From assembly GCA_022777285.1 (NCBI GenBank), contig JALFGN010000129.1, positions 1-41,973 on the forward strand: DNA of 41,973 nt. The letters are read 5' to 3'. Under the pieces are notes generated by a model that was not told the DNA's origin, ran no database searches, and worked only from the letters and a program-made list of their open reading frames with translations. Position numbers and translations under genes: made by a program. The stretch comes from Blautia sp. (GTDB taxonomy: Bacteria; Bacillota; Clostridia; Lachnospirales; Lachnospiraceae). Below are positions 26,553 through 37,336 of this stretch, one piece after another; positions within the stretch are counted from its first letter, which is position 1; every line of letters begins with the position of its first letter.

Positions 26553-27470
26553 TTGAAATGCGAAAGATGCGGTCATGAACTCGACGATACCGATTTGTTC
26601 TGTTCAAAATGCGGAAAAGCCGTATTTGAAGAGTATATGGATCTGGATGAAGAAGAGGAATCACGAGAGCAGATCATAGAAGAAATCCCGCAGGAACCGG
26701 AAAGAAAAAGAGAACCACGGAAAAGAAAACCGGAAAAAAAGAGTCCGGTATGGCTGATTGCAGGTTGTGTTCTTCTGGTATGTCTGCTTGTAGGGATTCT
26801 GTGGGGAATGCTTACAGTAAAGCAAATGGACGAGGAAAAGAAGTCCTATTACGGAGAGACCCAGCCTGTGGAAGACCTTGAGGAAGAGACCGCTTCCACA
26901 GAAAAAGAAGAGACAGAAAAGGGAGAGACGGAAGAAGAGAAACCGGAAGAAACGGTGAAAGAAGAAACGAAAGAAGAGGAAGCCAAACAGGAATCTTTTG
27001 TATTCACAGACAAAGACAGTGTAGATTTCAGTCAGTACAAAAAGATTTCCGTTGCTTTGGCGGAACAAAGCTCCATGGCTTACTCGGAAAACTATGATTA
27101 CAGTGCGAACAGTGCCGCAGACGGAGATAGTTCCACTTCCTGGCAGGAGGGACTGGACGGACTGGGTGAGGGAGCTGGAATCAAACTGAGTTTTGACAAA
27201 CCGCATAAGATTCGCTATATGGTTCTGTACCTGGGCAATTGGAGAAGTGACAGCATGTGGGAAAAGAATGCACGTCCTGCATGTCTTACCATAAATCTGG
27301 GCGATAAGCAGAGCAAGAATGTGGATTTTTCCGATGAAAAGAAAGCATTCTGTCTTTCTTTTGAGGAACCGGTAGAAGCTTCTTTTGTAAGTCTGTACAT
27401 ACATAAGGCTTACGGTGGTTCTCAGTGGAACGATAACTGTATCTCAGAAGTAGAGTTTTATGAAGAATAA
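26553..27470 (+). CDS. membrane-anchored zinc-ribbon protein with C-terminal discoidin/NADase-type glycan-binding-like domain
   Basis: A 305-residue protein of unknown function. It starts at TTG 26553 (behind AAAGGGTGAT), giving an N-terminal zinc ribbon with C3, C6, C17 and C20. One transmembrane helix follows at about 65-87 (SPVWLIAGCVLLVCLLVGIL and onward), preceded by a basic Arg/Lys-rich stretch. A low-complexity Glu/Lys/Thr linker covers about 95-150. The C-terminal 140 residues contain SADGDSSTSWQEGLDGLG, IRYMVLYLGNWRS and ISEVEFYEE, resembling the discoidin-like glycan-binding domain found next to some NADase domains. The zinc ribbon would be cytoplasmic and the lectin-like domain outside. 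Its place at the tail of a cobalamin operon is unexplained. Confidence 0.72.
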   Translation: MKCERCGHELDDTDLFCSKCGKAVFEEYMDLDEEEESREQIIEEIPQEPERKREPRKRKPEKKSPVWLIAGCVLLVCLLVGILWGMLTVKQMDEEKKSYYGETQPVEDLEEETASTEKEETEKGETEEEKPEETVKEETKEEEAKQESFVFTDKDSVDFSQYKKISVALAEQSSMAYSENYDYSANSAADGDSSTSWQEGLDGLGEGAGIKLSFDKPHKIRYMVLYLGNWRSDSMWEKNARPACLTINLGDKQSKNVDFSDEKKAFCLSFEEPVEASFVSLYIHKAYGGSQWNDNCISEVEFYEE

Positions 27471-27574: not shown

Positions 27575-29206
27575 ATGGTAAAAGAAATCAGAAAACTTGG
27601 AATTCCGGATTATATCGGGATTCAGACAGAAAAAGCACAGTTCTGGGGAAAACCGGAGCAGGGAAGTGTACAGACGGAAGATGTGGAAGTGACTGTGGAA
27701 CAGGGCGAAGAAAATGACGCGGTCATGCTCCATGCAAAGTATTCTGCTGTGAAATGGGTCAAGCTTCACTGGAACATGGAGATTTCTTCCAATGCCCGGA
27801 TTTTTGCGGATGAATGGGAACGCGGATATGGAAATATGGAATGGAAAGGTATGAATCCAAACCGGATGTTTCCATGGTATTTTCTCCATTATGGAGAAGA
27901 GACAAAGGTAGTCTGGGGAGCAGGTGTGATGGTGCGTCCCGGTGCTATGTGCCAGTGGCTGATGAATACGAAAGGAATCACCCTTTATCTGGATGTCCGC
28001 TGTGGTGGTGCAGGGGTACATTTAAAGGGAAGGACGCTTTGCGCAGCCAGAATCGTAAGCCGTGAATTTTCTCAGTGTACGGTCTTTGAAGCAGCCCGTG
28101 CGTTTTGTCGTGCTATGTGTCCGGATCCGGTCTTTCCGGAAAAACCGGTTTATGGAAGCAATAACTGGTATTATGCATATGGAGACAGTTCCCAGAAAGA
28201 GATTCTTCGAGATACCGACTATCTTTGCCGTCTGACAAAAGGTCTTGAGAATCCGCCGTTTATGGTTGTGGATGACTGTTGGCAGGAGCATCACAGACTG
28301 GAGGATTACAACGGAGGTCCCTGGAGAAAGGGAAATGCAAAATTCCCGGATATGAAGGGACTGGCCGATGCAATCAAGGAAAGAGGAGCCCGTCCGGGTA
28401 TCTGGGTACGTTTTCTTCTGAATGAAGACGAAGCCATTAAACCGGAATGGAGACTTTCTCATAATGGATGTCTGGATCCGTCTCATCCGGAAGCCAGAGC
28501 GTATATCCGTCAGGATATGGAAACCATCTGCAAATGGGGATATGAGCTTGTGAAACATGACTTTTCCACGTTTGATCTGTTTGGAAAATGGGGATTCCAG
28601 ATGAATCCACTGGTTACTTCCGATGGCTGGAGTTTTTATGACCGGACAAAGACCAGCGCAGAGATTGTTACCGATTTCTACCAGATGATCTGGGATGTGG
28701 CAAAAGAATATCAGGTCATCATCATCGGCTGTAATACCATCGGTCATCTGGGGGCAGGTCTGATGCAGCTGAACCGTATCGGCGATGATACCAGTGGAAA
28801 AAGATGGGAGAGAACCAGACAGCTGGGTGTCAATTCACTGGCTTTCCGCCTCATGCAGCACAGAACCTTTTATGATATTGATGCAGACTGTGTAGGAATT
28901 GCAGGAGCCATCAGCTGGGAAAAGAACAGACAGTGGTCCAGACTGCTTGCAAAGAGCGGTACCCCGTTTTTCCTGTCTGCAGTTCCGGATCTGCTGGATG
29001 AAGAGCAGGAAAAAGAACTGGCAGGATTTCTGGAAATCGCATCGAAACAGGAAATCCATGTGGTACCGTGTGACTGGCTTACAAACAGTTGTCCGGAAAT
29101 CTGGTCGGATGGAGAGACCACGGAAACCTATGACTGGTATGAAGAAAAAGGAATGGAATTTGATTATGAATCCATCCGTTATACAATGATGCAGTATGCA
29201 GATTAA
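27575..29206 (+). CDS. alpha-galactosidase-like glycoside hydrolase, clan GH-D (GH36-like)
   Basis: A 543-residue cytoplasmic protein (no signal peptide). An N-terminal beta-rich part is followed by a TIM barrel starting near residue 190 with YGSNNWYYAYGD. FMVVDDCWQ near 230 and RPGIWVRFLL near 272 are typical of the clan. The likely nucleophile is Asp329 in LVKHDFSTFDLFG, and the likely acid/base lies in IGDDTSG (Asp404 or Asp405). The family generally acts on alpha-galactosides or related sugars; the exact substrate cannot be told. AAGGAGG precedes the ATG. It is a single transcription unit between two cobalamin/cobalt units, ending in a bidirectional terminator. Confidence 0.8.
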   Translation: MVKEIRKLGIPDYIGIQTEKAQFWGKPEQGSVQTEDVEVTVEQGEENDAVMLHAKYSAVKWVKLHWNMEISSNARIFADEWERGYGNMEWKGMNPNRMFPWYFLHYGEETKVVWGAGVMVRPGAMCQWLMNTKGITLYLDVRCGGAGVHLKGRTLCAARIVSREFSQCTVFEAARAFCRAMCPDPVFPEKPVYGSNNWYYAYGDSSQKEILRDTDYLCRLTKGLENPPFMVVDDCWQEHHRLEDYNGGPWRKGNAKFPDMKGLADAIKERGARPGIWVRFLLNEDEAIKPEWRLSHNGCLDPSHPEARAYIRQDMETICKWGYELVKHDFSTFDLFGKWGFQMNPLVTSDGWSFYDRTKTSAEIVTDFYQMIWDVAKEYQVIIIGCNTIGHLGAGLMQLNRIGDDTSGKRWERTRQLGVNSLAFRLMQHRTFYDIDADCVGIAGAISWEKNRQWSRLLAKSGTPFFLSAVPDLLDEEQEKELAGFLEIASKQEIHVVPCDWLTNSCPEIWSDGETTETYDWYEEKGMEFDYESIRYTMMQYAD

Positions 29207-29246
29207 AAAAACTGCCGGCAGAAAATTTTCTGTCGGCAGTTTTTTT
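29205..29246. terminator. bidirectional terminator between convergent genes
   Basis: A 15-bp palindromic stem (ACTGCCGGCAGAAAA at 29211-29225 with its near-perfect complement at 29226-29240) is flanked by A-run and T-run on either side. It can stop both the GH36-like gene (+) and the cbiM-N-Q-O/K operon (-). Half of it lies right at the end of each gene. Confidence 0.9.
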
Positions 29247-30909
29247 AATATTCAGCGGCTTTTAAATGTTCTACAAAAATCTTACGGATTCCTTCGTATT
29301 CACCCAGACCTTTCAGAACCGGTGTGACTTTATAACCGGCTTCTTTGAATTTGTTGTACCAGGAATCCGGATCATCGCCTGCCATATCATTTTTGGCATG
29401 GTCGCCGGCAACAATCATAAAAGGAGCCAGGAACACTTCTTCCGGTTTATAGGCATCTACCATACGTTTGAGACTTTCCATGGAAGGATAGGCTTCTACG
29501 GTACCAAGGAAAATATTCGGGTAGCCTTTATCCTTAAAGGTATAGTCCAGAGCAGCGTAGATGGAATTTGCAAAGTGCGTGGTTCCATGTCCCATAAATA
29601 CAAGGGCCTGACTGGGTTTCAGCCAGGAAAAGGCATCGGTCAGCACCTGGATCACAGCATTGCTGTCTTCTTCAGAAGTAAGCAGTGGGGTACCAAACGA
29701 AATCGAAGAAAAGAATTCAGAATAAGAAAGAACATCCTCTTTCATCAAATCATTTTCGATTCCATTGATCACATGCGTAGGCTGAACCAGAACATCCGTA
29801 ATTCCGTCTGCTTTCATCTGTTCCATGGCCTCTTTTACATTCCTGACAGAAACCTGATCTCTTGTTTTCAGCTTTTTGATGATCATTTTGCTGGTCCATG
29901 CACGGTAAACCGGGTAGTCCGGGAACGCATCCCCCAGATCGCGTTCAATGGCATCAATGGTCACCTTTCGTGTGTCGTTGTGGCTGGTGCCGAAGCTTAC
30001 AACCAGAATGGCTTTTTTCTTTTTCTGTTCCACAGTGGTATTTCCTCCATAATATGTAGTGTTCAAATTTACATATGAAATATATTTTTCAAGGGTTTTC
30101 AGATTCTTTGGCAGAGGCAGTCCTGTTTTGAGGATTCCCTTCTTGCAAAGGCTGTCAAAGAGTTCCAGAACAGCAGGGGGTTCCAGATTGGTCTGGGCAA
30201 GTGCTGCCTTATTGGTAAAGACCTGTTCCGGTGTTCCGTGCATGAGAACCTTGCCTTCATGAAACAGCATGATCTGATCGGCCCATTCATAGGCATAGTT
30301 GACATCGTGGGTGGCCAGAAATACAGTAATGCCGGATTCGGTCATACGATCCACGATCTGGTTGACCAGAGTTGTGTGTTTGGGATCTAAAGCGGCTGCC
30401 GGTTCGTCCAGAATGATAATGTCCGGTTTCATGACGAGAATGTCTGCAATGGATACCTGTTTTTTCTGTCCGCCGCTTAAGGCGTGGGTCGGTTTGTGAC
30501 GAAAAGGCGTGATCTCCAGCTGGTCGATAACCGTTTCTACCGCTTCTTTGGCTGCTTTTTCGGAGAGACCCAGATTCAGAGCTCCAAAAGAAATTTCCTG
30601 ATAAACACTGGCAGAAAACAGCTGATTATCGGGATCCTGAAAGACGATTCCGATTTTACTGCGCAGTTTCAAAAGGCTTTTTTTGTCATAAGAATAGGGC
30701 GCACCATTATAGTACAACGTTCCGGAAGAGGGTTTGTGAATACCGGTACAGCAAAGAAAAAAAGTGGATTTTCCGGAACCGTTGGCTCCCATAAAAGCAA
30801 TCTTCTGACCTCTTTTGATTTCAAGAGAGAGACCGTTCAGGGAATGGGATTTTTCATCGTCATAGGAAAAATACAGATTGTCTGCTTTTAATATAATATC
30901 GTTGTTCAT
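29245..30909 (-). CDS. cbiOK: fusion of cobalt ECF transporter ATPase (CbiO) and anaerobic cobalt chelatase (CbiK)
   Basis: One 554-residue frame. Residues 1 to about 270 are CbiO: Walker A GANGSGKST near 41, signature LSGGQKKQVSIA near 143, Walker B DIIILDEPAAAL near 163 and the switch ATHD. After a short linker, residues about 293-554 are sirohydrochlorin cobaltochelatase CbiK with His441 (FMGHGTTH), Glu472 (GTVEAYPS) and His504 (VAGDHAKND). These sit at spacings that reproduce His145/Glu175/His207 of Salmonella CbiK with an offset of 296-297. Import and insertion of cobalt are thus on one chain. A GGAGGA site and GTG at the junction could also yield CbiK alone. The ATG overlaps the cbiQ stop. 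Confidence 0.93.
   Translation of the reverse strand: MNNDIILKADNLYFSYDDEKSHSLNGLSLEIKRGQKIAFMGANGSGKSTFFLCCTGIHKPSSGTLYYNGAPYSYDKKSLLKLRSKIGIVFQDPDNQLFSASVYQEISFGALNLGLSEKAAKEAVETVIDQLEITPFRHKPTHALSGGQKKQVSIADILVMKPDIIILDEPAAALDPKHTTLVNQIVDRMTESGITVFLATHDVNYAYEWADQIMLFHEGKVLMHGTPEQVFTNKAALAQTNLEPPAVLELFDSLCKKGILKTGLPLPKNLKTLEKYISYVNLNTTYYGGNTTVEQKKKKAILVVSFGTSHNDTRKVTIDAIERDLGDAFPDYPVYRAWTSKMIIKKLKTRDQVSVRNVKEAMEQMKADGITDVLVQPTHVINGIENDLMKEDVLSYSEFFSSISFGTPLLTSEEDSNAVIQVLTDAFSWLKPSQALVFMGHGTTHFANSIYAALDYTFKDKGYPNIFLGTVEAYPSMESLKRMVDAYKPEEVFLAPFMIVAGDHAKNDMAGDDPDSWYNKFKEAGYKVTPVLKGLGEYEGIRKIFVEHLKAAEY
30033..30048 (-). promoter_or_regulatory. internal ribosome-binding site and GTG start at the CbiO/CbiK junction
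   Basis: On the minus strand GGAGGA (30048-30043) is followed after 9 nt by an in-frame GTG (30033-30031) that begins VEQKKKKAILVVSFG, precisely the N-terminus expected of a stand-alone CbiK. Translation from it gives 262 residues, the normal size for CbiK. It may be a live start or a relic of two separate genes. Confidence 0.6.
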
Positions 30910-31682
30910 AGAAAGAATCTCCTCTGAATAAAAAGTACAAAAAGAAACAATTCAAAAACCGTGATCAGCACAATGATTTTTTTTCTGGGCGGGTGATCTT
31001 CAGTCAATACCCGGATCGTACCGTCGTAGCAACGGGCTTCCATGGAAGCGTAAAGGGCATTGGAACGTTTTACCGCCCGTATCATAAGCGCTGTGCAAAG
31101 CGCAGCAAAGGACTTCAGAGAAGTTCTGTAGTTTCGGTTTCCCAGTCTGCATTCCTGAGAGGTGGAAAGATAATAGGCTGTATCCAGCAGAATAAAGATA
31201 AAACGGTAGATCAGAAGCATCAGCTCGATCAGAAGCTTTGGACAATGCAGTTTTTCCAGTACCATGAGAATATCCGGCATAGGTGTATTCATGGATAGAA
31301 AATACAGGCAGGATACAGCAGCCAGTGCAGTCAGAATCAGCTGCAGGGCATAGAGAAATCCCTGCATACTGCCGGTGATGTACCAGTTGCCCAACTGTAA
31401 GGCAAACAAGTCCAGCGGTTCTTTTTTTACATTTACGATAATTGCCAGTGTACTGAGTAAAAGAAAAACCAGCGGAATACATAAAAAATGAAGATAGCGG
31501 AAAAGGGGGATTCTCCCTTTCCATACGGTTAGAATCCCCATAACAGCTAAAACAATCCCTGCAATGACCATGGAACGACTCATTACACAAAGAACCAGTG
31601 TAATCATGGCAAATGCAAATTTTTCACCGGCGTTTTCGTAGCGAAGACCGGAATTGTAACAGAGTTTATCGATCGTAATCAA
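30906..31682 (-). CDS. cbiQ: cobalt ECF transporter, transmembrane (T) component
   Basis: Membrane scaffold that couples the ATPase CbiO to the substrate-binding subunit CbiM. The 258-residue protein is very hydrophobic, with about five helices, and has the coupling-helix type motif ALMIRAVKRSNALYASMEARCY near 200, characteristic of the T component (long positively charged helix before the last membrane segment). The start is a TTG at 31682, behind AAAGGTGA at the end of cbiN; no ATG is available near it. Overlaps the cbiO/K start by 4 bp (ATGA). Confidence 0.93.
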   Translation of the reverse strand: MITIDKLCYNSGLRYENAGEKFAFAMITLVLCVMSRSMVIAGIVLAVMGILTVWKGRIPLFRYLHFLCIPLVFLLLSTLAIIVNVKKEPLDLFALQLGNWYITGSMQGFLYALQLILTALAAVSCLYFLSMNTPMPDILMVLEKLHCPKLLIELMLLIYRFIFILLDTAYYLSTSQECRLGNRNYRTSLKSFAALCTALMIRAVKRSNALYASMEARCYDGTIRVLTEDHPPRKKIIVLITVFELFLFVLFIQRRFFL

Positions 31683-31685
31683 AAA

Positions 31686-31985
31686 TCATTCACCTTTTCC
31701 AAGTTTTTTTCTTTCGACAAAACGGCCCATGAAGAAAGCGATAATTCCTACTCCAATGGAAGACTGGATACAGAAGAGAAGGCTTTCTACTTCCCCGGGA
31801 AGTTCATGTCCCAACAGTTTTTCCAGGATGGGCTCTGCGATGGGTTCGTATCCGGAATCCACTTCCTCTACCACCTGACTTCCGGCATCATCGGAACCGC
31901 CAAACTCGGCTTCTTTTAATGCGAACAGAGGGATAAAAGCAATTAATACGACCAGAATCAGTAAAAGGATCACTTTCTTTTTCAT
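31686..31985 (-). CDS. cbiN: cobalt transport auxiliary membrane protein
   Basis: Small 99-residue protein with two membrane helices (about 4-24 and 69-89) joined by an acidic outward loop with EAEFGGSDDAGSQ and SGYEPIAEPI, the usual CbiN pattern. In this family it helps CbiM load cobalt. A GGAGGG site at the end of cbiM precedes its ATG; 1 bp gap from cbiM and 3 bp from cbiQ. Confidence 0.94.
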   Translation of the reverse strand: MKKKVILLLILVVLIAFIPLFALKEAEFGGSDDAGSQVVEEVDSGYEPIAEPILEKLLGHELPGEVESLLFCIQSSIGVGIIAFFMGRFVERKKLGKGE

Positions 31986-31986
31986 T

Positions 31987-32733
31987 TTATTTTCCCTCCT
32001 TTAAAAATCCGATGGCACGAAGCTCCGGTTTTGCATAAGTTTCCAGTCCTATAACGATCAGTACAGTCAGGATTCCTTCGATAATCGCAAGCGGAATCTG
32101 TGTAGGTGCAAACACCATCAGGAATTTTCCCATGGCACCGGTAATGGTGGTATCTGTGTGATGCGCGATGGCCATCTGCACAGCGGTGATACAATAGGTG
32201 AATAAATCCCCCAGAGTAGCAGCCAGAAATACAGAAATCCGTTTGTTGAGCTTACATTTCTGACAGAGCTTGTAAATCGCATATGTAAGAAACGGACCGG
32301 CGATTGCCATGGAGAAGGTATTGGCTCCGATTGTAGTCAGTCCGCCATGTGCCAGCAGAATCGCCTGAAATACCAGAACAATCAGTCCGAGAATGGATAC
32401 CGCACTTGGTCCGAACAGGATGGCACCAAGTCCGGTTCCGGTCATATGAGAACAACTGCCTGTGACGGACGGAATCTTCAAAGATGAAATCACGAAGACA
32501 AACGCTCCGGACATGGCGAGAAGTGTGATGAGATTTCTGTGTTCATTTAATGTTTTGCGGATGGAAAGAAATCCGGCTGCAAGAAAAGGAATGCAGAGGA
32601 CACCCCAGGCAATGCAGTAACCGCCCGGAAGATAACCTTCCATGATGTGCATGGCATTGACATTCGGTACAATTCCAAATGTAAGTGCCAGGATGCTGAT
32701 AAGAGCAAGCATGTGTTTCTGTTTTCGATTCAT
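31987..32733 (-). CDS. cbiM: cobalt ECF transporter substrate-binding component
   Basis: S component that binds Co2+ from outside. The 248-residue protein begins with a signal peptide of about 27 residues ending NVNA, after which MHIMEGYLPGGYC follows. Cleavage there exposes the Met-His N-terminus that ligates the metal in CbiM/NikM proteins. CSHMTGTGLGAILFGPSAV near 114 and several helices complete the family picture. I take the ATG at 32733, behind CAGGAGG; the frame open to 32802 runs into the riboswitch terminator and is not used. First gene of the cobalt operon. Confidence 0.95.
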   Translation of the reverse strand: MNRKQKHMLALISILALTFGIVPNVNAMHIMEGYLPGGYCIAWGVLCIPFLAAGFLSIRKTLNEHRNLITLLAMSGAFVFVISSLKIPSVTGSCSHMTGTGLGAILFGPSAVSILGLIVLVFQAILLAHGGLTTIGANTFSMAIAGPFLTYAIYKLCQKCKLNKRISVFLAATLGDLFTYCITAVQMAIAHHTDTTITGAMGKFLMVFAPTQIPLAIIEGILTVLIVIGLETYAKPELRAIGFLKEGK

Positions 32734-32778
32734 TTTTTTCCTCCTGTTTTTTATTTTTGTTGAGTAGAAATAAAAAAA

Positions 32779-32798
32779 CCTGCGGGTTTCCCGGCAGG
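32779..32798 (-). terminator. terminator of the cbiM cobalamin riboswitch
   Basis: On the minus strand CCTGC(c)GGG-AAA-CCCGCAGG forms an 8-bp stem with one bulged C and is followed by seven T residues (32778-32772). It lies about 40 bp before the cbiM start, the usual place for riboswitch-controlled termination. Confidence 0.88.
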
Positions 32799-32805
32799 CC
32801 ATAGA

Positions 32806-32883
32806 AAGAACAGGATACCGGAGAATCCACCGGTATGGATAGACTGTTCTTACACAGGGCCATCGTTCGTAACCGTTGTGTAA
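32806..32883 (-). promoter_or_regulatory. expression-platform hairpins of the cbiM riboswitch
   Basis: Two strong hairpins lie between aptamer and terminator. One has an outer stem AAGAACAG/CTGTTCTT (32806-32813 with 32844-32851) and an inner stem ATACCGG/CCGGTAT (32815-32821 with 32830-32836). The other is TTACACA/TGTGTAA (32850-32856 with 32877-32883), directly after the aptamer where the P13 kissing-loop hairpin is expected. Which states exclude each other cannot be settled by eye. Confidence 0.55.
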
Positions 32884-32885
32884 TT

Positions 32886-33052
32886 AGATGCAGCAGGCAG
32901 GTCTTCTGACTCAGGGATCCATGCTGTATTTTGTCTTCCCAGTTTCCCAGTGACATATGTAAAATACAGCTCCTCCATTACAGCGGCGTGACCGTGTGAG
33001 ATTTTCACTCAGCTTTCCTATTCTTCCAAAACGGACACCTGCGACATTTAAT
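32886..33052 (-). ncRNA. canonical cobalamin riboswitch aptamer upstream of cbiM
   Basis: Read on the minus strand, it shows the full class I order. First comes a 5' P1 strand GCAGGTGT, then GGAAAGCTGAGTGAAAATCTC, the CACGGTCACGCCGCTGTAATGG core, and a P6 arm closed by GCTGTATTTT and AAAATACAGC around GTCACTGGGAAACTGGGAAG. It ends with the B12 box GAGTCAGAAGACCTGCC pairing back to P1. High cobalamin is expected to reduce cobalt uptake. Its architecture is much larger than that of the cbiD switch. Confidence 0.93.
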
Positions 33053-33062
33053 TTCTACCACA

Positions 33063-33091
33063 ATTGTAGCGTTCGGCTGGCCGTTTGTCAA
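33063..33091 (-). promoter_or_regulatory. sigma-A promoter of the cbiM-N-Q-O/K operon
   Basis: On the minus strand, TTGACA (33091-33086) and TACAAT (33068-33063) are separated by exactly 17 nt, upstream of the riboswitch. A near-consensus promoter. Confidence 0.9.
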
Positions 33092-34498: not shown

Positions 34499-34958
34499 AA
34501 AATATTTTCCTTTGTTTATGGATTTAAACAGCAAAAAGGTGATGGTGGTCGGCGGCGGTACCATTGCCGAAAGAAGAATCCGTACGCTGCTGGATTTTGT
34601 GGAAGAAATCTGGGTGATCGCACCGGAGATCTCGGATGGAATCCGGGAACTGAAAGAACAGGGCAGAATCTTCTGGAAGAAGAAAAGGTATGAAAGAGAA
34701 GACATCTATGATGCAGATCTGGTACTGGCTGCGACGGATGACAGGAAGGTGAATGAAGATATTTACAGCGCCTGTAAATGTCTGGGGATTCTTGTAAATA
34801 CAGCCAGTGACAGAAGAAAATGTGATTTTTATTTTCCGGGGATTCTTCTGGAAGAAGATGTGGTGATGGGATTTAACAGCGGAGGCGATCCGGTAAAATC
34901 AAGAGAAATGCGAAGAAAAGTGGAGCGGCTGCTCCACCAGCCGGGAGGAAAAGAATGA
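34488..34958 (+). CDS. precorrin-2 dehydrogenase (sirohydrochlorin-forming), SirC/Met8-like
   Basis: NAD-dependent oxidation of precorrin-2 to sirohydrochlorin, the substrate of the CbiK cobalt chelatase. The 156-residue protein begins FPLFMDLNSKKVMVVGGGTIAERRI, a Rossmann NAD site typical of the CysG N-terminal/Met8 family. LVLAATDDRKVNEDIYSAC near 80 and VNTASDRRKCDFYFPG near 103 are conserved; the loop after it carries the usual acid-base Asp. The frame extends back to 34422 inside hemA, but the ATG at 34488 has GGAG upstream and the family N-terminus. Overlaps hemC by 4 bp. Confidence 0.9.
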   Translation: MKTKKYFPLFMDLNSKKVMVVGGGTIAERRIRTLLDFVEEIWVIAPEISDGIRELKEQGRIFWKKKRYEREDIYDADLVLAATDDRKVNEDIYSACKCLGILVNTASDRRKCDFYFPGILLEEDVVMGFNSGGDPVKSREMRRKVERLLHQPGGKE

Positions 34959-37336
34959 GTCAGAGAAAAATCGTGATCGGAAGCCGGGAAAGCCGGCTGG
35001 CAGTGATACAAAGTGAAATGGTCAAGACCTATATTGAAGAAAAGAATAAAGACTGTCGGGTGGAACTGCTCACTATGAAGACAACTGGAGATAAGATTCT
35101 TGACCGTACCCTGGATAAAGTAGGAGGAAAAGGACTGTTTGTGAAGGAACTGGACAGAGCACTGGAAGACGGACGAACGATGCTGTCTGTACATAGTCTG
35201 AAGGATATGCCGATGGAGGTTTCGGAGGAACTTCCTCTCATTGCTTTTTCCAAGCGGCAGGACCCAAGAGATGTTCTGGTGCTTCCGGAAGGAGTGGATG
35301 CGCTGGATCCGGAAAAACCCATTGGTTGTTCCAGTCTTCGCAGAACCCTTCAGCTGAAGGAACTGTTTCCGGATATGACGTTTGCCAGTGTACGCGGAAA
35401 TGTGCAGACAAGACTGCGAAAGCTGGATGAGGGCCGGTATTCTGCCCTTGTACTGGCAGCAGCAGGTCTGAAACGTCTGGGATTGGAAGGACGGATCTGT
35501 CGTTACTTTGAGCCGGAGGAAATCCTGCCTGCAGCAGGGCAGGGAATTTTGGCTGTACAGGGCAGAAAGGGGCAGGATTATTCTTATCTGGATGGATATA
35601 ATGATGAAGACAGTGCCTGTGCGGCAATGGCAGAGCGGGCATTTGTGCGTGATTTGGACGGAGGCTGTTCTTCTCCTGTGGCTGCCTATGCGACGGTAGA
35701 AGGAGAGGAACTGACGCTGACCGGTCTGTATTATGAAGAAGACACGGGTGCATACCGGAAGGCTTCTTTGAAGGGAAACAGGAAAGAAGCAGAAGAAATC
35801 GGAATCCGTCTGGCAAGACAATTAAAGCATCCGGGAAAAGTATGGCTGGTAGGCGCCGGACCGGGCGACGTGGGCCTGTTTACCTTAAAGGGAATGGAAG
35901 TCCTTCAGAATGCCGAGGTTGTGGTGTATGACAGTCTGGTCGGACAGGGGGTGCTTTCGAAAGTGCCGAAAGATGCCCGCAGGATCAATGTGGGAAAACG
36001 CGCTTCCAATCATACTATGCCGCAGGAACAGATTAACCGGGTTCTTGCAGAAGAGGCAAAGAAAGGTTTGCGTGTCGTGCGCCTGAAAGGGGGAGACCCG
36101 TTCCTGTTTGGAAGAGGAGGAGAAGAACTGGAACTGCTTCATAAAGAAGGCATTCCTTATGAAGTGGTTCCGGGTGTGACGTCTTCGATCGCAGTACCTG
36201 CTTATAACGGAATTCCGGTTACACACAGAGATTTTTGTTCTTCTTTGCATATTATTACGGGACATAAAAAACAGGGCGAACCGTATGATATTGATTTTGA
36301 AGCTCTGGTACGGACAAAGGGAACCCTTGTATTTCTCATGGGGGTGTCCGCTCTTTCAGACATCTGTACTTCGCTTCTGGCAGCTGGAATCGATCCGCAG
36401 ATGCCGGCGGCCATTTTGCAGAAGGGAACAACAGCAGGACAAAAAAGGATCGTGGCAACGGTTGGTACCTTACCGGAAGAAGTCAAACGTCAGGGCATTT
36501 TGACACCTGCGATTATTGTAGTGGGAAAAGTCTGTGCGCTTGCAGAAGAATTTGCCTGGTATGAAAAACTGCCTCTGGCAGGCTGGAAGGTTCTGGTTAC
36601 AAGACCGAAAGAAACCATCTCCACAATGGCACAGAAGCTGCGGGTCATGGGGGCAGAAGTACTGGAACTTCCTGCAATCCGTACAGAACCGCTGCAGGAT
36701 CAGCGCCTTCTTAAGAAGGCAATGGAAGAACTGGATACCTTTGACTGGATCGGGTTTACCAGTCCGATCGGTGTGCGTGTATTCTTCCGGGAAATGAAAC
36801 AGGCAGGAAAAGATATCCGTGCCCTTGGAAAGGTAAAGATTGCCGCAATCGGAAAAGGTACTGCAAAAGAGCTGGAAGAAAGAGGATTGTTTGTGGATCT
36901 TATGCCAAAAACCTTTGACGGAGCCTCCCTTGGGGCTGCTTTGTGTCAGGTATGTGAAGGAGAAGAAAAAATTCTTCTTCCGCGTGCAAAAATCGGGGGC
37001 AAAGAGATCTTAGAGAATCTTGCAAAAAAACCGGGTCTTACCATTTGTGATGTGCCTACGTATGACACGTTCTATGAAGAAAATGAGATGATTGATTTGA
37101 AGAACGCTTTTGAGTCAGGAGAAATCGACTGTGCAGTCTTTACCAGTGCTTCTACGGTACGGGGATTTGTAAACGGAGTGCCGGGTCTGGATTACAGCAA
37201 GGTGAAAGCTGCCTGTATCGGAAAACAGACCAGGGAAGCAGCCGATGCCTATGGAATGCAAACCTGGATAGCCAAAGAAGCGACCATTGACAGTGTGACA
37301 GATTTGGTTGTAGACTTAAAAGGATTACAAGAATAA
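34955..37336 (+). CDS. hemC-cobA-hemD: triple fusion: porphobilinogen deaminase (HemC), uroporphyrinogen-III C-methyltransferase (CobA), uroporphyrinogen-III synthase (HemD)
   Basis: A 793-residue chain with three enzymes. Residues 1-290 are HemC: IGSRESRLAVIQSEMV at the start, HSLKDMPMEV near 88, and the dipyrromethane-binding Cys238 in DLDGGCSSPV. Residues about 293-535 are CobA: VWLVGAGPGDVGLFTLKG, RLKGGDPFLFGRGGEE, PGVTSSIAVPAYNGIPVTHR. Residues about 540-793 are HemD: WKVLVTRPKETISTMAQKL, FTSPIGVRVF and FTSASTVRGF. It turns porphobilinogen into precorrin-2 via hydroxymethylbilane and uroporphyrinogen III, so flux is physically tied to the corrinoid/siroheme branch. One frame with no internal stop; overlaps the upstream gene by 4 bp. 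Confidence 0.95.
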   Translation: MSQRKIVIGSRESRLAVIQSEMVKTYIEEKNKDCRVELLTMKTTGDKILDRTLDKVGGKGLFVKELDRALEDGRTMLSVHSLKDMPMEVSEELPLIAFSKRQDPRDVLVLPEGVDALDPEKPIGCSSLRRTLQLKELFPDMTFASVRGNVQTRLRKLDEGRYSALVLAAAGLKRLGLEGRICRYFEPEEILPAAGQGILAVQGRKGQDYSYLDGYNDEDSACAAMAERAFVRDLDGGCSSPVAAYATVEGEELTLTGLYYEEDTGAYRKASLKGNRKEAEEIGIRLARQLKHPGKVWLVGAGPGDVGLFTLKGMEVLQNAEVVVYDSLVGQGVLSKVPKDARRINVGKRASNHTMPQEQINRVLAEEAKKGLRVVRLKGGDPFLFGRGGEELELLHKEGIPYEVVPGVTSSIAVPAYNGIPVTHRDFCSSLHIITGHKKQGEPYDIDFEALVRTKGTLVFLMGVSALSDICTSLLAAGIDPQMPAAILQKGTTAGQKRIVATVGTLPEEVKRQGILTPAIIVVGKVCALAEEFAWYEKLPLAGWKVLVTRPKETISTMAQKLRVMGAEVLELPAIRTEPLQDQRLLKKAMEELDTFDWIGFTSPIGVRVFFREMKQAGKDIRALGKVKIAAIGKGTAKELEERGLFVDLMPKTFDGASLGAALCQVCEGEEKILLPRAKIGGKEILENLAKKPGLTICDVPTYDTFYEENEMIDLKNAFESGEIDCAVFTSASTVRGFVNGVPGLDYSKVKAACIGKQTREAADAYGMQTWIAKEATIDSVTDLVVDLKGLQE

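Follow-up and report, generated by a model that had tools for sequence, protein, structure and literature searches.

A cobalt importer ATPase fused to a cobaltochelatase in Blautia and relatives carries a predicted internal start for free CbiK

Introduction

The cobalt ECF transporter CbiMNQO was first described in Salmonella, and structures are available for CbiMQO (5X3X, 5X41). For the anaerobic cobaltochelatase CbiK, structures exist of the Salmonella enzyme (1QGO, 2XWP) and of the periplasmic CbiK of Desulfovibrio (2XVX). A natural fusion of importer and chelatase offers a way to test how cells pass a scarce and toxic metal from its importer to the enzyme that uses it.

We describe here such a fusion, cbiO-cbiK, in a 41,973-nucleotide stretch of DNA from a Blautia sp. 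draft genome (contig JALFGN010000129.1; hereafter the window). As in CbiMNQO, cbiM, cbiN and cbiQ lie upstream, and the CbiO part is complete in its motifs and matches in fold, but here the ATPase bears a C-terminal chelatase. This chelatase matches Salmonella CbiK 1QGO over its whole length (42% identity, rmsd 1.4 in the Foldseek alignment) and has the same metal-site residues; unlike stand-alone CbiK it forms the C-terminal part of an importer ATPase and has an apparent second start. The closest parallel for that start is found in CRISPR systems, where an internal in-frame start in Haloferax cas8b gives Cas11b and such starts in bacterial cas8 and cas10 genes give Cas11, as shown experimentally according to the excerpted text of PMC11899642. 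Both cases have a nested in-frame start that gives the C-terminal part separately, but in cbiO-cbiK this is predicted from sequence, and the start lies in the linker that joins an importer ATPase to a biosynthetic enzyme, matching the start of the separate gene in relatives.

Our literature search, whose coverage mostly excludes subscription journals, found no description of a CbiO-CbiK fusion, and none is given in the excerpted texts of PMC7689651, PMC8123684, PMC6593275 and PMC6461909. CbiO, CbiK and internal in-frame starts are thus already known, and what is new is their combination in this fusion, which we have not found described. The junction is of wider interest because the start of a once separate gene can survive fusion within the new frame, where a one-protein reading hides the second product.

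Results and discussion

The fused gene and its operon

The cbiO-cbiK gene is the last gene of a riboswitch-headed operon, behind cbiM, cbiN and cbiQ. The features, in the direction of transcription, are:

33063..33091, minus strand: promoter-like TTGACA-17-TACAAT preceding the riboswitch (a consensus match only, at 11/12 positions; the region holds 6 such sites against 8.3 expected by shuffling)
32879..33057, minus strand: cobalamin riboswitch preceding cbiM (Rfam RF00174, 100.8 bits)
31987..32802, minus strand: cbiM (Pfam CbiM, 6e-54, residues 52-256); judged by eye, the true start is probably after the first ATG
31686..31985, minus strand: cbiN (Pfam CbiN, 2.5e-22)
30906..31682, minus strand: cbiQ (Pfam CbiQ, 4.7e-39)
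29245..30909, minus strand: fused cbiO-cbiK gene, 554 amino acids, 61.8 kDa (open reading frame with ATG start, Pfam, motifs, predicted structure)
30085..30909, minus strand: CbiO (ECF ATPase) part, residues 1-275 including a conserved tail (LEKY) (Pfam ABC_tran, NCBIfam cbiO; best solved matches 3gfo, 5x3x and 5x40)
30016..30084, minus strand: linker, residues 276-298 (pLDDT below 50 at 282-286 and 288-294)
29248..30015, minus strand: CbiK (sirohydrochlorin cobaltochelatase) domain, residues 299-554 (Pfam CbiK; 1qgo by sequence and fold)

A preliminary description of this DNA had read a single frame joining CbiO to CbiK, with the motor motifs intact and a metal site made up of His441, Glu472 and His504, and our analysis bears this out in each respect. 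The open reading frame runs exactly from 29245 to 30909 on the minus strand, and joins a complete CbiO to a complete CbiK: in Pfam, ABC_tran covers residues 24-171 (3.7e-31) and the CbiK family (PF06180) residues 299-552 (4.2e-87; 292.2 bits against a cut-off of 26.2; profile positions 1-260 of 262). The CbiO part has Walker A (GANGSGKS at 41), Q-loop (VFQDP, 89), signature (LSGGQ, 144), Walker B (IIILDEP, 164) and ATHD (199) motifs, and scores above the cut-off of the NCBIfam model TIGR01166 (219.9 against 211.8 bits) and below the cut-offs of the longer NCBIfam equivalog models shown. The CbiK part is a family member that falls under the threshold of the NCBIfam equivalog SiroCoChCbiK (NF047852), with 262.8 bits against 400 despite a match over positions 2-255 of 261. 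Its residues H441, E472, H504 and E385 are all present and invariant across 32 aligned fusions. In the alignment with 1QGO, H441 and H504 pair with H145 and H207 of Salmonella CbiK, the two residues named as catalytic in the excerpted text of PMC7689651.

The predicted structure of the fused chain comprises two well folded domains with a low-confidence join (mean pLDDT 84.4, pTM 0.51), and Foldseek matches the CbiO domain to CbiO and CbiMQO structures and the CbiK domain to Salmonella CbiK 1QGO. Across 51 fused loci the linker measures 20-26 codons between the matched ends; its length is nearly fixed while its sequence drifts. CbiM and CbiQ are encoded upstream in all 34 fused loci with more than 2300 nt of upstream DNA.

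Distribution of the fusion

The preliminary description had called for the CbiO-CbiK architecture to be mapped, and the fusion is found well beyond its own genome. Because the loci were collected using either the window's fused protein or the CbiK family as query, the fused ones are not a random sample. The 162 loci included 113 with both parts close together on one strand, and the removal of identical ones left 78 distinct loci, 51 fused and 27 unfused; in the latter cbiO and cbiK lie close together yet are separate genes. One locus, L067, comes from a record titled UNVERIFIED_CONTAM. The fused frame is present in all 20 same-genus genomes examined, the window's own included (in one, L004, it is cut at the front by a contig end), and a scan of species genomes found carriers among named isolates, namely Blautia hansenii, B. 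caecimuris, B. schinkii, Lactonifactor longoviformis and Robinsoniella peoriensis. An even draw of 397 family genomes gave, among the matches listed (which have the full-length ones at their head), 16 genomes with one unbroken full-length frame and five more whose full-length or nearly full-length match is broken by stops. In a draw of 391 genomes from the class, searched at E 1e-100, no genome except the window's own contains an unbroken fusion. Judged by these two draws, the fusion belongs to one part of the family.

Several loci resembling fusions were set aside. G425 (locus L131) looked like another fusion, its linker being very short, but is not counted, since the front of its CbiO is broken by a stop; in the G425 loci L131 and L148, CbiO and CbiK share a frame over that very short linker. 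A same-genus relative of G425, G127 (L155), has separate genes in different frames. G099 and G326 show long open frames among the matches listed, but have stops in the gap and are unfused. In Blautia sp. An249 (L062), a stop separates the two genes.

Of the reading offered in the preliminary description, the fusion itself holds: it is genuine, keeps its motifs intact, stands in a cbiMNQ operon and is conserved beyond this genome. What that reading overlooked is the predicted internal start in the junction.

A predicted ribosome-binding site and start codon in the linker

The linker sequence reads TATGGAGGAAATACCACTGTGGAA, in which GGAGG is followed by ten bases and an in-frame GTG (codon 293):

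30044..30048, minus strand: internal Shine-Dalgarno sequence GGAGG, read as Gly-Gly codons (spacing of 10 in 38/51 distinct fused loci)
30031..30033, minus strand: predicted internal start GTG, codon 293, which would give a CbiK of 262 amino acids and 29.6 kDa (NTG conservation)

GGAGG, exactly 10 bases and an in-frame NTG recur in 38 of the 51 fused loci and in all 20 same-genus genomes, and L063 has the site at a spacing of 7. No further GGAGG-10-NTG site occurs elsewhere in those 51 reading frames. When spacings of 5-12 are allowed, 27 chance-like sites appear elsewhere, in 19 of the 51 frames, so only the fixed 10-base spacing is clean. Synonymous shuffling of the linker peptides yields 8.4 loci with a site, against the 38 observed. 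As a base rate, spacing-10 sites occur 29 times in 36 cbiO-cbiK reading frames and 5 times in 380 others, and these five other loci include a truncated fusion (L064) and a split pair of like kind (L073). A spacing of 10 is within the usual range here: among 121 starts led by GGAGG, roughly counted, 20 have this spacing and 88 fall at 7-11.

Unfused relatives have the start of cbiK at the corresponding place, together with a stop and a ribosome-binding site, and the separate cbiK genes of most of them start with a like site. For this reason the linker is, on comparison of the sequences, most likely a former intergenic stretch that has turned coding. The full site is absent or weakened in 12 of the 51 fused loci: nine are without it (L052, L053, L057, L058, L069, L070, L081, L122, L124), two have a weakened GGAGG (L050, L121) and one has ATT at the start position (L046).

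We also considered ribosomal slippage as a way of releasing CbiO. Zero-frame slippery heptamers lie near the junction in 25 of 40 loci, with none in the window's gene, and so are not a shared feature.

Signs of selection on the internal site

Codon evidence points to selection on the site. All 40 tree rows with Gly-Gly in the linker encode the first of these glycines by GGA, with no change on the tree, against 8-20 changes for each of 26 other conserved Gly columns. At the start position, the 40 rows have GTG (16), ATG (14), TTG (8), ATT (1, L046) and GAA (1, L063, with a TTG three bases before it), the outcome of 12 changes on the tree. Valine is thus always GTG (16/16) and leucine always TTG (8/8) at this position; in these genes GTG makes up 30% of Val codons and TTG 7% of Leu codons. 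Four-fold degenerate third bases differ between pairs by a median of 64% (780 pairs, range 7.5-80%), so that shared recent ancestry alone does not explain the codon pattern.

The mRNA around the start is also more open than expected. In the 40 Gly-Gly loci its folding energy is -2.56 kcal/mol, against -6.82 kcal/mol for synonymous shuffles, whereas the 11 fusions without Gly-Gly show little such opening (-9.04 against -9.73 kcal/mol). Thinning the fused representatives leaves the 10-base site in 22 of 33 at below 90% identity, 11 of 18 at below 80% and 7 of 11 at below 75%. The fused loci L069 and L070 are outside the tree, the 40-row counts and the thinning, and the unfused L142 was dropped before tree building for low identity. 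Both kinds of pattern, in the codons and in the mRNA, fit selection on a start with its own ribosome-binding site inside the linker.

Fusions that lack the site or have a decayed ATPase

A quickly built tree of 75 rows requires at least 4 changes between the fused and unfused states, and 9 changes of a three-way label. The tree has 72 inner branches, 27 starred and 21 open, and its root is unsure, so the number of fusions as against re-splits is not fixed by it.

Two metagenome-assembled genomes (MAGs) of Fusicatenibacter have fusions in which the CbiO part is decayed:

L069, 1403-2983: fusion with decayed CbiO
L070, 453-2231: fusion with decayed CbiO

In both, the CbiO part is 31% identical to that of the window and the CbiK part 64-65%. 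The CbiO part reads LSDGQ and LDLP in place of the LSGGQ and LDEP of working ATPases, and the Q-loop stretch is missing. The two genomes, which as MAGs may be incomplete, gave no CbiM match; the search for cbiQ covered the collected loci. Since the internal site is gone from L069 and L070, the decayed ATPase may persist as an obligatory leader that has to be translated for ribosomes to reach the chelatase. The L069 genome contains a second CbiK match, as do some other fused genomes (G352 and G433, with CbiK-like matches). By eye, a transposase-like reading frame lies upstream in L069.

The separate-gene relatives (27/78) and the two MAGs with decayed CbiO suggest that tethering is dispensable. 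Separate genes, fusions lacking the site and the two MAGs with no CbiM match show that no single arrangement is essential. They also provide natural controls: fused genes with the internal start, fused genes without it, separate genes, and fused genes with a decayed ATPase.

One gene, two probable forms of the chelatase

We propose that the gene probably makes two products, CbiO-CbiK (62 kDa) and free CbiK (30 kDa). Translation from the first start would give CbiO-CbiK as the ATPase of a CbiMNQ cobalt importer, with the chelatase carried on a flexible linker of ~20 residues at the cytoplasmic side. CbiMQO is a 1:1:2 complex according to the excerpted text of PMC7689651, and on this stoichiometry short linkers would hold two chelatases on the cytosolic side. 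A second entry of ribosomes at GGAGG-N10-GTG would give free CbiK. Such an internal start would let the chelatase exceed the amount of the transporter, uncoupling two products that the fusion had joined. The window's own draft genome (146 contigs, 93.2% complete) has one CbiK match only, so both forms would come from cbiO-cbiK. Initiation at the linker GTG is what we infer from the sequence patterns described above; our suppositions also include the placing of the fusion in the CbiMNQ importer and a gain in cobalt capture from having chelatase and importer close together. Counting against the two products are the 12 fusions short of the full site, the chance-like sites at spacings of 5-12, the GTG codon at the start used here and the drop to 7 of 11 representatives at below 75% identity. 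The preliminary description had taken a finding of only separate CbiO and CbiK polypeptides as evidence against a fusion; with an internal start, a free CbiK of ~30 kDa would be expected beside the 62 kDa fusion and would not refute it.

What the tethered form would be for is less certain than the two-product proposal. Quite possibly, if somewhat short of probably, the fusion serves to link the amounts of two proteins made from one operon, nearness having no catalytic role. This is compatible with two products and accords with the relatives that have separate genes and with L069 and L070, which keep the fused frame despite the lost CbiO motifs and with no cbiM found in the genome. Against it speaks that the fusion has long been conserved and that its linker has kept its length even as the sequence drifted.

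The same short linker of near-fixed length (20-26 codons in 51 loci), together with the operon shared with cbiMNQ, would instead suit metal channelling as the driving force, in which Co2+ from CbiM/CbiQ would pass to tethered CbiK, hardly mixing into the cytosol, and free CbiK would play a minor part. Putative direct hand-over of cobalt from importer to CbiK is an attractive reading, and it too is compatible with two products, but as the driver of fusion we consider it rather doubtful: relatives manage with separate genes, and selection keeps a start for an untethered enzyme. A selected internal start implies that free CbiK is probably present in the cell alongside the tethered form, which weakens a purely channelling account, as the cell would not rely on hand-over alone.

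Combining these elements, we tentatively picture an importer ATPase with its own client enzyme, in which the selected start would supply a mixture of tethered and free chelatase at a ratio set by ribosome entry. Tethered CbiK might take up entering Co2+ directly, and free CbiK might either join the tethered copies, perhaps as partner subunits, or work in the cytosol. As a whole, this fuller picture is a good deal less secure than the proposal of two products.

The two-product proposal has its own competitors. One is that only the fusion is made, all CbiK being tethered and the internal site a now silent fossil of the old cbiK start. The cbiK start at the corresponding place in unfused relatives, and the nine loci that keep the fusion with no such site, would be expected on this account. 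It is nevertheless improbable, because a silent relic would not be expected to show no third-base change at GGA against 8-20 at other conserved Gly codons, nor NTG retained through 12 changes of state, nor mRNA that is open only where the Gly-Gly site is present. Still less likely is that GGAGG acts to slow ribosomes at the domain boundary for stepwise folding and is not part of a start; its position in a low-confidence stretch between two well folded domains would suit a pause, but pausing would not call for a start codon held at a constant distance of 10 bases, and the exclusive use of GTG for valine (16/16) and TTG for leucine (8/8) and the open mRNA would go unexplained. Finally, an assembly or sequencing error joining two genes, which the preliminary description had named as what would overturn the fusion and for which a draft genome of 146 contigs might leave room, is practically excluded and refuted by the relatives, given that 51 distinct loci have the same fusion, some of them in named isolates (Blautia hansenii and Lactonifactor longoviformis among others), as do 20/20 genomes of the genus.

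Neighboring genes in the window

A second multi-domain fusion in tetrapyrrole synthesis, the three-part HemC-CobA-HemD (34955-37336, Pfam), is encoded in the same window. By eye, neither of its two junctions has a GGAGG with a following in-frame start, which makes them a useful contrast to the cbiO-cbiK junction. Downstream of cbiO-cbiK, an inverted repeat flanked by T runs (29207-29246) lies between converging genes and by eye has the look of a shared terminator; the scan that gave the promoter-like sequence did not list it. The convergent gene, a 543-amino-acid reading frame (27575-29206) with no Pfam match at 0.001, separates the cobalamin genes from the cobalt operon. Among those cobalamin genes, after cbiC, is a gene (26553-27470) whose zinc-ribbon product has an F5/8 type C-like 'NADase_transloc' domain.
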